From Devriesea agamarum (lineage in GTDB: Bacteria > Actinomycetota > Actinomycetes > Actinomycetales > Dermabacteraceae): a stretch of 64,000 nucleotides of DNA. Each line of letters opens with the position of its first letter. Position 1 is the stretch's first letter. A program made the position numbers and the translations under genes. The DNA lies in the NCBI RefSeq assembly GCF_900070355.1, contig NZ_LN849456.1, forward strand, positions 1,612,001 to 1,676,000, in the 5' to 3' direction. Shown in pieces: positions 10,954 through 15,993 of this stretch. Under the pieces are notes generated by a model. The model saw only the letters and a program-made list of their open reading frames with translations, made no database searches and had not been told where the DNA came from.

Positions 10954-11175
10954 ATGGCCCGTCGATCCCGCACTCTCCGTCAGCGCATCGGAAATCAGCT
11001 GCTGTTCTCCATCGCTGTGCTCACTGTGCTGTTCTTTTTGCTGAAGTTCATCGGGATCCGCGTCACGATGCCGGGCCTGGTGCTATCGATTGTCATCACC
11101 GTCGCCCTCAACGTGGCCCTGTCGTATTGGAATGTCAACCGCTCCCCGAATCGCCCCAGAGACGAGCAGAGATGA
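10954..11175 (+). CDS. Small membrane protein
   Basis: 73 aa. The basic N-terminus MARRSRTLRQRIG is followed by two hydrophobic helices (about 17-36 and 39-60) and a short charged tail. It overlaps the next gene by ATGA (11172-11175), so the two are translationally coupled. It resembles the small DUF4229-type proteins of actinobacteria in size and topology, but I cannot confirm the family. It is divergent from sucC. A role as partner or anchor for the following protein is only a guess. Confidence 0.7.
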   Translation: MARRSRTLRQRIGNQLLFSIAVLTVLFFLLKFIGIRVTMPGLVLSIVITVALNVALSYWNVNRSPNRPRDEQR

Positions 11176-11654
11176 ACGACTGGCGAACCTATATGAAAGC
11201 GGCGCGCAACACCGTGCGCCAACAAGCTCCGGGAGCACGTGAAGCCGTCAAGCAGACGGTAAAGGACGCCGCACAGTCCGCTCGTGTGAATGCGAAAGCC
11301 GCAGGACACGTCCTGTCCTCCCACACCGAACAGACCCGAAAGGCAGTGCGCCAAGATGCCGCTGCCTACGTGGTGGTGGCGCATCGCAAGTTGAAACGAG
11401 CCCAGCTGGGTCGACGTCTGCTGGCGGCACTGCGCGACGCCCTGATCATGGGGGTCTCGATCACCGTGATCTGGTTTATCCTCAGCAAAACCGCTGTCAA
11501 AATTCCCTTCGAGTGGGTGCTGATTGGGATCATCTTGTTGATGGCTCTACGTTTCGTCGTCGCGTTTTCTCGAAAGCGGCCGGAATCGGACGAGGCTGAA
11601 GCAACCGGGGCAGAGCAATCCCCAGACGGCTCATCCGCACCGCCACAGCGCTGA
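11172..11654 (+). CDS. Membrane protein with an amphipathic N-terminal region
   Basis: 160 aa from the ATG at 11172, chosen because it overlaps the upstream stop as ATGA. Residues 1-85 are hydrophilic, Ala/Arg/Lys/Gln-rich and probably helical, with spaced ARxxVKQTVKDAAQSAR-type repeats reminiscent of apolipoprotein-like or LEA-like helices. Residues about 90-135 hold two transmembrane helices, and an acidic tail ends the protein. I do not recognise a family. Together with the 73-aa protein it forms a two-gene unit. Confidence 0.65.
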   Translation: MNDWRTYMKAARNTVRQQAPGAREAVKQTVKDAAQSARVNAKAAGHVLSSHTEQTRKAVRQDAAAYVVVAHRKLKRAQLGRRLLAALRDALIMGVSITVIWFILSKTAVKIPFEWVLIGIILLMALRFVVAFSRKRPESDEAEATGAEQSPDGSSAPPQR

Positions 11655-11699: not shown

Positions 11700-14465
11700 G
11701 TGACCGACGAGGCCTCCGCACCGACAGCCGACCCCACCCCATCCTCAAACCGCCCGCGACACAGCCCGCCCGGCGGTCGCCGATCCTGGCACCGGCAAGC
11801 TTCCCGCCCCATTTCATGGTGGCTCTTTGCCCTGGTGGTGCTCGCGTTTATTCATCCGTGGGTGCCGCAATCACGCTGGCTGCTGGTGCATATGGTGACC
11901 TTGGGTCTGATCACCACATCGATCATGATCTGGGGCCAGCATTTCACCGAAGCACTGTTAAAAATCCGTTTACCGGACTCAGCCCGGTCAGTTCAGGTGT
12001 GGCGAATCCGGGCGCTCACCGTCGGCATCATCGTGGTGGGCACGGGAATCATCGGAGGGTGGCCGTGGGTCACCGTAGCCGGAGCCGTGGTGGTGGGCGG
12101 CTGCGTCACCTGGTACGCCCTCGATTTACTCGGGCAGCTTCGGCGAGCGCTTCCCTCTCCATTTCGCAGCACCGTCCGTTTTTACATCACCGCAGCACTG
12201 TTACTCCCGGTGGGCGCCACGTTCGGGGCTCTCCTCGCATTTTCTCCTCCGAGCCCTTGGCAGGGGCGACTACTTCTCGCTCACCAGGCGATCAATCTGC
12301 TCGGTTTCGTGGGGCTCACGGCTGTGGGGACTCTGATCACCCTGTGGCCGACTGTCTTGCGGACCCGGATGGTTGCAGGCCAGGCGCAGACCGGTTATCG
12401 CGTGCTTATTGCCCTCGCGGCCGGGATGACGCTGATCGTGGCCGGGGCACTCCTCGGATTCACTGCACTGGTGGTCGCGGGCCTGGTGGTGTATCTAGCT
12501 GGGCTGCTGTGGTTTATGACAGACCTCGTGCGCTGTGCGCATGCTCAACCACCCGTCACATTCCCTGCGATGTCGATCGCGGCAGGGGTTCTATGGCTGC
12601 TCGGGACCTTAATTGGTCTGCTCGTGCTGCTTCTAACGGACCCTCACCGGGTGCTGGTGGCCGGTGATATCCAGGGCCTCACCGTCCCCTATGTTGCAGG
12701 CTTTTTGGTTCAGTTGCTCTTCGGCGCCATGAGTTACCTCATGCCTACAGTGATGGGTGGCGGCCCCGCGCCAGTGCGGGCTGGGCTGCGCGAAACGGAT
12801 CGGTTTGGGGTTGCCCGAGTCATCGCGCTGAACACCTCCCTCGTGCTGTACCTATTAATCCCCTCTTCAACGGTCCGAGTCGCCGTTGCTTTCGTGGCTT
12901 TCATCAGCTTGGGGATGTTCATTCCGCTCATTATTCGGATGGTCAAGGCCAATCTGCGGGCTAGACGGGATACCGGGCGCGCCCAGCAAGCCCTACACGC
13001 GCAGCACAAGACGCCGGACACAACGCCCAACCTGGCCGCACACCACGTGTCGAATGAGCACGAGACACCGGTGAACCGGCGACATTTTGCCGAAGCAGTG
13101 CTCGGGATCGGCACCGCGCTAGGTGCGGTCGCCGTGGGCCGGGCTGCCGACCCTGCACTCACAGGGCCCATCTCCTCCGCCACCTCTGATCCTGACGGAA
13201 ACACTCGCGCTATCCGTCCCACCGGGCATACGACGAGGATTAAAGTCACCGCATCGGGGATGAGGTTTCATCCCCAAAATCTCACGGTTCCGGTGGGTGA
13301 TCACCTGATACTCACCGTCACAAACACCGATCCGACGACCACACACGACCTGGCGTTGGATAACGGCGCTCAGACTCGGCGTCTGTCTCCCGGCGCATCT
13401 CAAACGCTCGACGTCGGGGTGATCCGCACCGATATACACGGGTGGTGCACCATCGTGGGGCACCGGGCGATGGGCATGGTCTTAAACATCCGGGCCCTCA
13501 GATCAGCTGGAACAGACCACACCGCCGCTGACACCCACGGCAACACGGATGCACACGACGAACAGCTTGTCGGCGTCCCCGAGCGCCAAACCGTCGATCT
13601 CACGGCACCTCCCGGGCCCCAGTACCAGCCTCGTCATGCCTTATTGCCCGCGGTTCCTCCCGGGCGACGGCACCAGATTGACCTCACCGCCGAAGAGGTC
13701 GACCGCGAGTTCGCCCCCGGATTTACCCAACGCGCCATGACCTACAACGGTCTAGTGATGGGACCGATCCTGCACGCACATGTCGGAGACGAGTTCGCGG
13801 TACATCTGGTCAATAAAGGCAGCATGGGCCATTCGATAGATTTCCACGCGGGAACGGTTTCACCGCAACCAAATATGCGCACCATCGCACCCGGGCAGTC
13901 ACTCGATTACGAGTTCACCGCCCATCGTTCCGGGATCTGGCTCTATCACTGTTCCACGATGCCAATGTCAGCGCATATTGCATCCGGAATGTTTGGGGCC
14001 GTGATCGTGCGTCCGCCGAGCCTGAGCCAGGTGGCTCGCGAATATGTACTGGTGCAATCTGAGGCCTATTTAGGTCCTCGCGGCGGGAACGTCGATATGC
14101 GCAAAATTGCTGATGAACGGCCGGACCTCACCATGTTTAACGGACACGCAAACCAGTATGTGCACGCGCCTTTGACTGCTCGGGTTGGAGAACGTATCCG
14201 GTTCTGGGTTCTCGCCGCGGGACCGAGCAGGGGCATAAGTTTCCATATTGTGGGCGCCCAATTCGACACCGTCTTTAAAGAAGGCGCGTACCTGTTGCGT
14301 CCGGATAACCCCGACCTTGGCGGATCCCAGGCGTTAGACCTCGCCTCATGCCAAGGAGGATTCGTTGAAACCGTGTTTGAACAACCCGGCACCTACACCT
14401 TCGTTAACCATTCGTTTGTTGACATGGAGCGCGGTGCCCGCGGACTGATCACCGTCACAACCTGA
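11700..14465 (+). CDS. nirK: Three-module copper protein: polytopic membrane domain, cupredoxin, NirK-type nitrite reductase
   Basis: 921 aa from a GTG. Residues about 38-415 contain roughly ten to twelve helices in an NnrS-like arrangement with scattered His. Residues 455-485 form another hydrophobic stretch after VNRRHF. A cupredoxin domain (510-600) has a complete type 1 site: H549, C583, H588, M593. The C-terminal part (about 650-921) is a two-domain copper nitrite reductase: type 1 H711, C751, H759, M764; type 2 H716, H750, H904; catalytic D714 and H849. Every residue needed to reduce nitrite to NO is therefore present. The extra cupredoxin may pass electrons inward, with the catalytic part outside the membrane. 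Related fusions are known from actinobacteria. No other denitrification gene is in the window. Confidence 0.88.
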   Translation: MTDEASAPTADPTPSSNRPRHSPPGGRRSWHRQASRPISWWLFALVVLAFIHPWVPQSRWLLVHMVTLGLITTSIMIWGQHFTEALLKIRLPDSARSVQVWRIRALTVGIIVVGTGIIGGWPWVTVAGAVVVGGCVTWYALDLLGQLRRALPSPFRSTVRFYITAALLLPVGATFGALLAFSPPSPWQGRLLLAHQAINLLGFVGLTAVGTLITLWPTVLRTRMVAGQAQTGYRVLIALAAGMTLIVAGALLGFTALVVAGLVVYLAGLLWFMTDLVRCAHAQPPVTFPAMSIAAGVLWLLGTLIGLLVLLLTDPHRVLVAGDIQGLTVPYVAGFLVQLLFGAMSYLMPTVMGGGPAPVRAGLRETDRFGVARVIALNTSLVLYLLIPSSTVRVAVAFVAFISLGMFIPLIIRMVKANLRARRDTGRAQQALHAQHKTPDTTPNLAAHHVSNEHETPVNRRHFAEAVLGIGTALGAVAVGRAADPALTGPISSATSDPDGNTRAIRPTGHTTRIKVTASGMRFHPQNLTVPVGDHLILTVTNTDPTTTHDLALDNGAQTRRLSPGASQTLDVGVIRTDIHGWCTIVGHRAMGMVLNIRALRSAGTDHTAADTHGNTDAHDEQLVGVPERQTVDLTAPPGPQYQPRHALLPAVPPGRRHQIDLTAEEVDREFAPGFTQRAMTYNGLVMGPILHAHVGDEFAVHLVNKGSMGHSIDFHAGTVSPQPNMRTIAPGQSLDYEFTAHRSGIWLYHCSTMPMSAHIASGMFGAVIVRPPSLSQVAREYVLVQSEAYLGPRGGNVDMRKIADERPDLTMFNGHANQYVHAPLTARVGERIRFWVLAAGPSRGISFHIVGAQFDTVFKEGAYLLRPDNPDLGGSQALDLASCQGGFVETVFEQPGTYTFVNHSFVDMERGARGLITVTT

Positions 14466-14487: not shown

Positions 14488-15993
14488 TTATCGGGGGGCA
14501 GGCGATGCGCTGAGCGGATGGGCTCGACGCAGCGGAGTTCCCAGCACATAACCCACCAGCGCAAGCACGGTGATCACAGCGAGCGTACCGAGCGTCAACG
14601 CTTCAAAGGTTCCGCGTTCAACTTTCCACGTGCCGTGGAAGTCGTAAGGCAGGCCCAGCATGTGCTCGATCGTCCCGGGGAAAACCGTCGTCCAGGACCC
14701 AACCAGCACCCAGGCCAAACACAGCCCGCCGAGTGCCATGAACCCCAGGTTAGAGACCGGTGCTTTAAAGGACCTCGGCACATCCGGTCGCGAATACCGC
14801 AGGCGGATCACAGCCGGGATAATGATCAGATACGACAGTAAGAATGTGCTGATCGAAATATTCAGCACAATGTTGAACAAGGTCGCTGACGTTCCGTGCA
14901 CGCTCATCGCGGCCACTAAGAAGGCCGTCGCCACCACCCCGGAGAGCACGTTGACTCGTACCGGAGTGCCAAGGCTGCGGTGAAAGCGGCCAAAAAATCC
15001 TCCAAAGAAGGCACCGTCGGCCGCAGCGATGGCTTGCATCCGGTCAGAGACCAGCATCCACGATGCCCCGTGACAGACCGTGATAGCGACCAGGATCAGC
15101 GCCATTGCGGCGAGCATCGGCTCCTGGACGGGGCCGTACACGCTAAAGACCTCGCGCACCGCGTTCATCAGACCGTCGACCCCGTCGATCTTCTCCGCGG
15201 GAAGAACCCACAAAATCGCAGCGATCGGTATCAGGTAGCAGACCGCGGCAATCGCGCAGGCCCGCAACACCGAAATCGACACGTCTTTGGTAGCGTTTTT
15301 CATCTCCCCGGACGCTGAGTTCGGTGCCTCAAATCCGAGAAAAGAAAACAGCAGCAGCGGAACCACCGCAAAAAACCCGGTGAGGGTGGGGGTTAATGAT
15401 CCCAGCGACAGTGTTTGCGGACCTTTGAGGATCAGATAGAGAACAGCGGTCAGAACGAAGAACCCCAAGAAAACAATCTTGAGAACGGCACCTAGATTCG
15501 GCACCCACTTGGCCTTGTTCATGCTCACCACGGCAAAGAACACCGTGATCCAGATATAGCTGAGCTTCACTGCATAGTCACCAACACTGCCGTGGCTGAC
15601 CGGAATGAGGTACTGATCAATGGTCTCCGATGCGAGAAACGCCATCGATCCACCCACCCAGACCGGTTGCGTCACCCAAGTCAGAATCGACGCGACCGAA
15701 GCTAACGGGCGTCCGAAAGCCTCGCGCACCCACAAATACACCCCACCTTCGCCGATAAACGCCCCACCTGTTTCAGCGAAAATCAGCGCGTAGGGGACCA
15801 GGAAGAACAACACCAAGACCAAGCACCAGGTGAATGTCTGCGGACCCAGTGCTGAGACCGATCCGAGCATTTCCAGCCCGACCACAGCCGCAATAATGAG
15901 GAACAGGATGTCGAGCCGCCCCAGGGTCTTCTTCAGGTAGCGGTTTTGCTCAGCCGCCATAGCGGTCGAGGTCCGTTTATTGACAAGCGACAC
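14488..15993 (-). CDS. APC-family amino acid permease
   Basis: 501 aa from GTG at 15993, with AAAGGA about 10 bases upstream. Around twelve helices start at LDILFLIIAAVVGLEMLGS, with the APC signature region AETGGAFIGEGGVYLWVREAFG. The family imports amino acids, polyamines or their antiporter pairs with protons. The GEGGxYxWV motif resembles glutamate/GABA or putrescine transporters, but the substrate cannot be set from sequence. It is a single gene transcribed leftward and converges with the nirK fusion with a 22-base gap. Confidence 0.88.
   Translation of the reverse strand: MSLVNKRTSTAMAAEQNRYLKKTLGRLDILFLIIAAVVGLEMLGSVSALGPQTFTWCLVLVLFFLVPYALIFAETGGAFIGEGGVYLWVREAFGRPLASVASILTWVTQPVWVGGSMAFLASETIDQYLIPVSHGSVGDYAVKLSYIWITVFFAVVSMNKAKWVPNLGAVLKIVFLGFFVLTAVLYLILKGPQTLSLGSLTPTLTGFFAVVPLLLFSFLGFEAPNSASGEMKNATKDVSISVLRACAIAAVCYLIPIAAILWVLPAEKIDGVDGLMNAVREVFSVYGPVQEPMLAAMALILVAITVCHGASWMLVSDRMQAIAAADGAFFGGFFGRFHRSLGTPVRVNVLSGVVATAFLVAAMSVHGTSATLFNIVLNISISTFLLSYLIIIPAVIRLRYSRPDVPRSFKAPVSNLGFMALGGLCLAWVLVGSWTTVFPGTIEHMLGLPYDFHGTWKVERGTFEALTLGTLAVITVLALVGYVLGTPLRRAHPLSASPAPR

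Follow-up and report, generated by a model that had tools for sequence, protein, structure and literature searches.

The closest described systems are the fused NirK-type copper nitrite reductases (CuNIRs) of actinobacteria. Excerpts of Decleyre 2016 (PMC4770552) describe the NirK of Cutibacterium (Propionibacterium) acnes as a protein of ~900 amino acids, in which an N-terminal transmembrane (TM) domain of ~400 amino acids "of unknown function" is followed by a C-x4-H-x4-M cupredoxin and then by NirK. According to the same excerpts, the actinobacterial NirK of that study all carry the cupredoxin, and the TM domain is absent in some. The excerpted parts of Schwartz 2022 (PMC8756737) deal with other Nir fusions, in Chloroflexi. 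The TM-cupredoxin-NirK layout in actinobacteria is already published, and the Devriesea agamarum gene analyzed here, which has no architectural difference from the P. acnes type, is a further member.

A cupredoxin likewise precedes NirK in the three-domain CuNIR of Hyphomicrobium denitrificans (2dv6, 6tfd, 6tfo), and both of its copper parts align with those of the Devriesea model. The rmsd over both copper parts is ~21, and therefore the relative arrangement of the cupredoxin and NirK differs in the models. The solved Hyphomicrobium chain consists of the copper parts only. We know of no membrane domain for that enzyme. In the passages of PMC4770552 that concern it, the N-terminal cupredoxin is considered too distant from the core to pass electrons on, and a mutant without cupredoxin copper is reported to be more active.

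What is new here is the predicted fold of the membrane domain, its two invariant histidines, the life of this module both beside and without NirK, and a genome in which no NO reductase was detected.

One reading frame encodes the membrane and copper domains

The gene lies in the 64,000-nucleotide stretch of DNA that was analyzed (the window), as a single unbroken ORF of 921 amino acids with a GTG start (Table 1). It is the sole match in its own 2.96-Mb single-contig genome and has no internal stop. When one genome per species was scanned, 522 of 527 pattern matches proved to encode a relative, and the best 80 of these 522 stretches, with identities of 41 to 59%, were kept as fused loci. A single open frame spans nearly the entire query in all 80, so that the original prediction of one protein rather than two holds for this gene and for its best 80 relatives. 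A chance fusion was ruled out, as all three parts are in one frame in every kept locus. The record names of these best 80 loci are those of Brachybacterium, Cutibacterium, Dermabacter, Rothia, Kocuria, Nocardioides, Mycobacterium, and other actinobacteria, with one record labelled as an unverified Bacillus; the Cutibacterium loci are 51 to 53% identical to the query.

The multi-helix membrane part was also foreseen correctly: twelve long helices, and one more ahead of the cupredoxin, were counted from the predicted model. The twin arginine ahead of the thirteenth helix, which Tat export would need, is present here, but a pattern search found RR in only 35 of 81 sequences.

Table 1. Features of the nirK locus, in window coordinates
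Feature	Position	Strand	Basis
Small membrane-type ORF, 73 aa	10954..11175	+	No Pfam match; similar small gene in place in L181, L182
Small ORF, 160 aa, end 45 bp before nirK	11172..11654	+	No Pfam match; cluster of four loci; similar gene in L181, L182
Whole gene: membrane domain, cupredoxin, and NirK	11700..14465	+	ORF; 80 one-frame relatives of the same make-up
Twelve-helix membrane domain, predicted heme-copper oxidase/NO reductase subunit I fold, residues 25-435	11772..13004	+	Models; fold matches; no Pfam family
Membrane part modelled by itself, residues 36-425	11805-12974	+	Predicted model
H64, invariant, helix 2	11889..11891	+	49/49 fused, 40/40 separate rows
H195, invariant, helix 6	12282..12284	+	49/49 fused, 40/40 separate rows
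Thirteenth helix, residues 459-483, twin arginine just before	13074..13148	+	Predicted model
Type 1 cupredoxin, residues 505-600 (H549, C583, H588, M593)	13212..13499	+	PF13473; invariant ligands
NirK domain, residues 640-921 (282 residues)	13617..14462	+	Profile, sequence, fold, conserved ligands

Both copper domains have their full sets of ligands

The C-terminal part matches TIGR02376 over residues 656 to 919 (144.6 bits, E = 4.2e-42), under the equivalog cut-off of 296.3. This model fits the phylum poorly, because only 5 of 396 genomes reach the cut-off, whereas 159 match it to some extent at E 0.001. The solved structures nearest by sequence are CuNIRs (E = 1.5e-40), as are those nearest by fold to the predicted model (Z up to 33.2); the fold list obtained with the full-length protein holds CuNIRs only, as one domain fills that list. 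Alignment to the Geobacillus CuNIR places the type 1 ligands at H711, C751, H759, and M764, the type 2 ligands at H716, H750, and H904, and the catalytic residues at D714 and H849. All of them are invariant in a 60-sequence alignment, save M764, which is conserved in at least 90%. The prediction of a complete NirK is thus borne out for every type 1, type 2, and catalytic residue. The second type 1 copper domain proposed to precede it is present as well, as a PF13473 match whose four ligands (Table 1) are invariant in 60 sequences.

The membrane domain is predicted to adopt an oxidase fold

AlphaFold2 modelled the membrane domain from 49 sequences with a mean pLDDT of 94.1 and a pTM of 0.92. 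The top Foldseek match of this model is subunit I of a cbb3 oxidase (E = 1.8e-5). Structural alignment with VIA-align gave a Z of 32.3 over 379 of 390 residues with CcoN and Z values of 29.0 to 30.8 with two cytochrome c NO reductases (NORs), and all 50 VIA-align matches listed are heme-copper oxidases and NORs. The models thus predict a heme-copper oxidase/NOR subunit I fold from end to end. The fold shared with CcoN and NorB extends over 363 to 381 of 390 residues (Z 29 to 32), at an identity of 8 to 12% and with no match by sequence. No oxidase was found when the membrane profile was compared by sequence with solved structures, and a Pfam scan of the membrane part alone returned no family, bar one chance-level match at E 1.1. 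Three matches to SemiSWEET (E 0.02 to 0.04, ~75 residues) were taken as chance. A tblastn search of a collection of 72,556 plasmid records at E 1e-3 gave no match to the domain.

In oxidases and NORs, the histidines that bind heme and CuB or FeB are located in helices 2, 6, 7, and 10; of the oxidase helices, number II supplies a ligand to the low-spin heme and number VI one to CuB. Across the 49 fused sequences, 21 residues of the membrane domain are invariant and the rest varies. H64 and H195 are the only invariant histidines, and both are also present in all 40 alignment rows of separate membrane genes (see below). Their helix numbers and depth suggest that they correspond to the oxidase ligands of helices II and VI. 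Neither helix 7 nor helix 10 has an invariant histidine in the 49 fused sequences or the 40 separate rows, and the complete oxidase/NOR site is therefore absent. A complete NO reductase within the same chain was ruled out on these grounds, the ligands missing from both sets.

NnrS is a polytopic membrane protein linked to NO metabolism, and the membrane part had been called NnrS-like. It is likewise polytopic, but this label found no support in the sequence: membership in PF05940 was rejected, with no match at E 1 for the protein or at E 10 for the membrane part. Comparison by profile to five NnrS proteins yielded probabilities of 0.3 to 0.5%, in a weak test that likewise missed the COX1-family protein of the same genome (0.4 to 0.9%); a distant kinship with NnrS may still exist. 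Across 198 genomes of the phylum, PF05940 had one weak match and zero above the cut-off.

The membrane module also exists as a separate gene

The membrane profile matches 54 of the 396 genomes of the phylum, in 59 rows, 8 of which are fused (L092-L096, L098-L100). From the 51 non-fused rows, 40 separate loci were examined, G028 (L097, L183) was examined on its own, and 10 rows were left out; the 40 rows of the separate alignment are 39 of the 40 loci plus L097, with L140 dropped for an internal stop. Flanking genes are the calls of a simple ORF caller. A NirK-type gene lies near the separate membrane gene at 9 of the 40 loci, versus a chance expectation of ~0.1 (441 kb of loci, about one good NirK per 3 to 4 Mb), and seven of these nine are strong matches (L125, L128, L138, L139, L144, L145, L159). 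A cupredoxin of the fused-family type is also found near it at 9 of 40 loci. The strongest sign of a joint function of the parts is L139, in which NirK, cupredoxin, and membrane protein are consecutive on one strand, as a split version of the fused chain. The other copies, 31 of 40, have no NirK-type gene within the examined flank.

In L153 (7185-8891), genes for a cupredoxin (PF13473) and for an HTH regulator come after the separate membrane gene, with no NirK in the examined stretch, an arrangement that may reflect a non-nitrite use of the module. In L159 (7322-7831), a regulator of the Rrf2 family (PF02082), to which the NO sensor NsrR belongs, lies beside separate nirK and membrane genes; its cluster is represented in 4 of the 40 separate loci.

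The module is retained after probable loss of the copper domains

The gene is matched in 23 of 39 close genomes. In G397 and G401, which represent two species of one sister genus in the same family and are drafts (96 and 98% complete), the match is confined to the membrane part; in G421 it is limited to residues 470 to 907. The membrane-only orthologues are intact genes for 435 amino acids (L181:5977-7284 and L182:5938-7245), and their setting is that of the window, with two small genes and a sucC/sucD-like region ahead of the membrane gene. A tblastn search of 800 bp downstream of them detected no trace of copper domains. In a tree built by a quick method with SH-aLRT, the pair sits inside the fused clade (support of 96 for the 8-row set), and the copper domains were therefore most likely lost. 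Between the genes of the pair, dN is 0.044 and dS is 0.491, a sign of purifying selection. The module thus serves some purpose in the absence of NirK, and this argues both against a mere anchor and against the feeding of NirK as its sole role.

Gene neighborhood

The two small ORFs ahead of nirK (Table 1) are probably its operon partners, judging from their place. Another polytopic protein, A3, is encoded on the same strand at 48 of the 80 fused loci and ends 600 nt or less upstream of the membrane domain; the A3 model was itself built from sixteen of the counted loci. A3 (e.g., L006:6830-8005) has invariant histidines of its own, the three members that were scanned match no Pfam family, and its likeness to the module is weak, with hhalign probabilities of 24% (A2) and 75% (deeper alignment). 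An HTH regulator is found in the examined flank of 51 of the 80 fused loci. This regulator looked SufR-like, but a Cys pattern matched 13 of 51, and we do not claim an Fe-S cluster for it. Within the window there is neither A3 nor the HTH regulator, and the two small genes precede nirK instead. A further neighbor cluster occurs in 20 of 81 sources, and its one tested member is a DUF2249 protein. On the other side, an amino acid permease gene (PF13520; window 14488-15993, minus strand) is convergent with nirK.

Nitrate, nitrite, and NO in the genome

The original prediction had pointed to the rest of the genome as the place to look for narG, and a narG gene was indeed found at genome positions 1685294-1688890, which is ~59 kb after nirK ends and 9.3 kb beyond the end of the window. 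The row of ORFs around it (L091:7707-15996, genome 1683707-1691996) begins 7.7 kb past the window end and would, by the sizes of the genes other than narG, be narK-narG-narH-narJ-narI. The genome also encodes nirB, above its cut-off. We classed 25 genomes of the family by eye as having the full fusion (17), the membrane part only (2), or neither (6). With no correction for kinship, narG is above its cut-off in 10 of the 17 full-fusion genomes versus 0 of the 8 without full fusion; it is missing in 7 of the 17. The organism's own narG and this co-occurrence in the family make nitrite from nitrate respiration a likely substrate.

The genome has one COX1-family protein, in a 584-codon frame, whose score suggests the usual aa3 oxidase. 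There was no match to a second member of that family, a possible NorB or qNor, and globins of PF00042 and PF01152 are absent. With one COX1-family protein and neither globin, the earlier remark that NO made here would need another outlet is strengthened, and NO probably leaves the cell.

Electron supply to NirK and alternative roles of the membrane domain

The evidence tips slightly in favor of a membrane-tethered CuNIR whose electrons come most likely from the quinone pool and pass through the membrane domain and the cupredoxin to NirK. In its favor count the conserved copper and catalytic residues, the CuNIRs that come nearest among solved structures, the fold match of the membrane model, the two histidines kept in fused and separate rows, the linkage of the split parts in other lineages, and the occurrence of narG with the fusion in the family. 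In the route that we infer, the N-terminal domain would take electrons from its donor, most likely the quinone pool, with H64 and/or H195 possibly binding a heme or copper for this step, and the cupredoxin would hand them from the membrane domain to NirK. The C-terminal domain, presumably a trimer as in other CuNIRs, would then reduce nitrite to NO at the outer face of the cytoplasmic membrane, and NO would exit by diffusion. The notion of a self-contained enzyme with its own relay is thus plausible and is helped by the split versions found elsewhere; it is weakened by the lack of an identified heme or quinol site and by the ability of the module to outlive NirK. Several results speak against a relay. 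A bis-histidine heme as in oxidases needs a ligand in helix 10, where there is no invariant histidine, the examined flank contains no NirK-type gene for 31 of the 40 membrane genes that stand alone, and two relatives keep the membrane part with no NirK or cupredoxin match. The excerpts of PMC4770552 on Hyphomicrobium, in which the cupredoxin is considered too distant and the copper-less mutant more active, point the same way. The missed TIGR02376 equivalog cut-off and the 7 of 17 fused genomes without narG also count against this reading as a whole. A more far-reaching version, which we put forward tentatively and consider somewhat unlikely, treats the membrane domain as an offshoot of the heme-copper oxidase fold that has abandoned O2 and NO chemistry and serves as a quinol-to-cupredoxin module for electron entry. 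The fused form would then be a single-chain quinol:nitrite reductase, and the separate form would feed other actinobacterial copper proteins.

The membrane domain might instead handle NO or a metal, as NnrS is thought to do in NO tolerance or in copper or heme loading, without donating electrons, and NirK would use an ordinary outside donor. The persistence of the module alone in two NirK-less species, with its low dN relative to dS, the majority of separate copies without a nearby NirK-type gene, and the absence of an NO reductase or tested globin from the genome would all be consistent with such a role. However, the L139 gene row and the way in which the domain is permanently joined to an electron carrier suit a relay better, and no profile kinship to NnrS was found, although that test is weak; we therefore regard NO or metal handling as rather unlikely. 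A simpler role, holding the copper domains at the membrane, would agree with the variable sequence of the domain, bar a few residues, and with its lack of a proved cofactor site. For this purpose one helix suffices, however, and the thirteenth is already present; moreover, 21 residues are invariant in 49 sequences and selection maintains the domain after NirK loss, which makes a mere anchor very improbable. We give as little credence to the C-terminal part being a two-domain multicopper oxidase for another substrate, such as a metal or a phenol. Pfam assigns it only to Cu-oxidase and cupredoxin families, the TIGR02376 cut-off is missed, and 3gdc, which is titled "multicopper oxidase", matches at a Z of 31.8; yet the protein has the catalytic Asp and His of NirK, both of them invariant, and CuNIRs come first both by sequence and by fold. 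In addition, the Y-H-C-x7-H-x4-M pattern lacks the second His that follows the Cys in laccases.

The enzyme itself is ordinary, and the membrane module is the point of interest. Among the titles and abstracts listed in searches of an open-access library, which covers few subscription papers, none names the fold of the actinobacterial NirK TM domain. To our knowledge, the electron donor of NirK in actinobacteria has not been established, and an oxidase-fold module with two invariant histidines makes this question directly testable. If the proposed passage of electrons from the quinone pool through the membrane domain is wrong, there is still a role to be found for a Pfam-less membrane family that persists without NirK; if it is right, an oxidase fold would be at work although it has lost most of its known metal sites.
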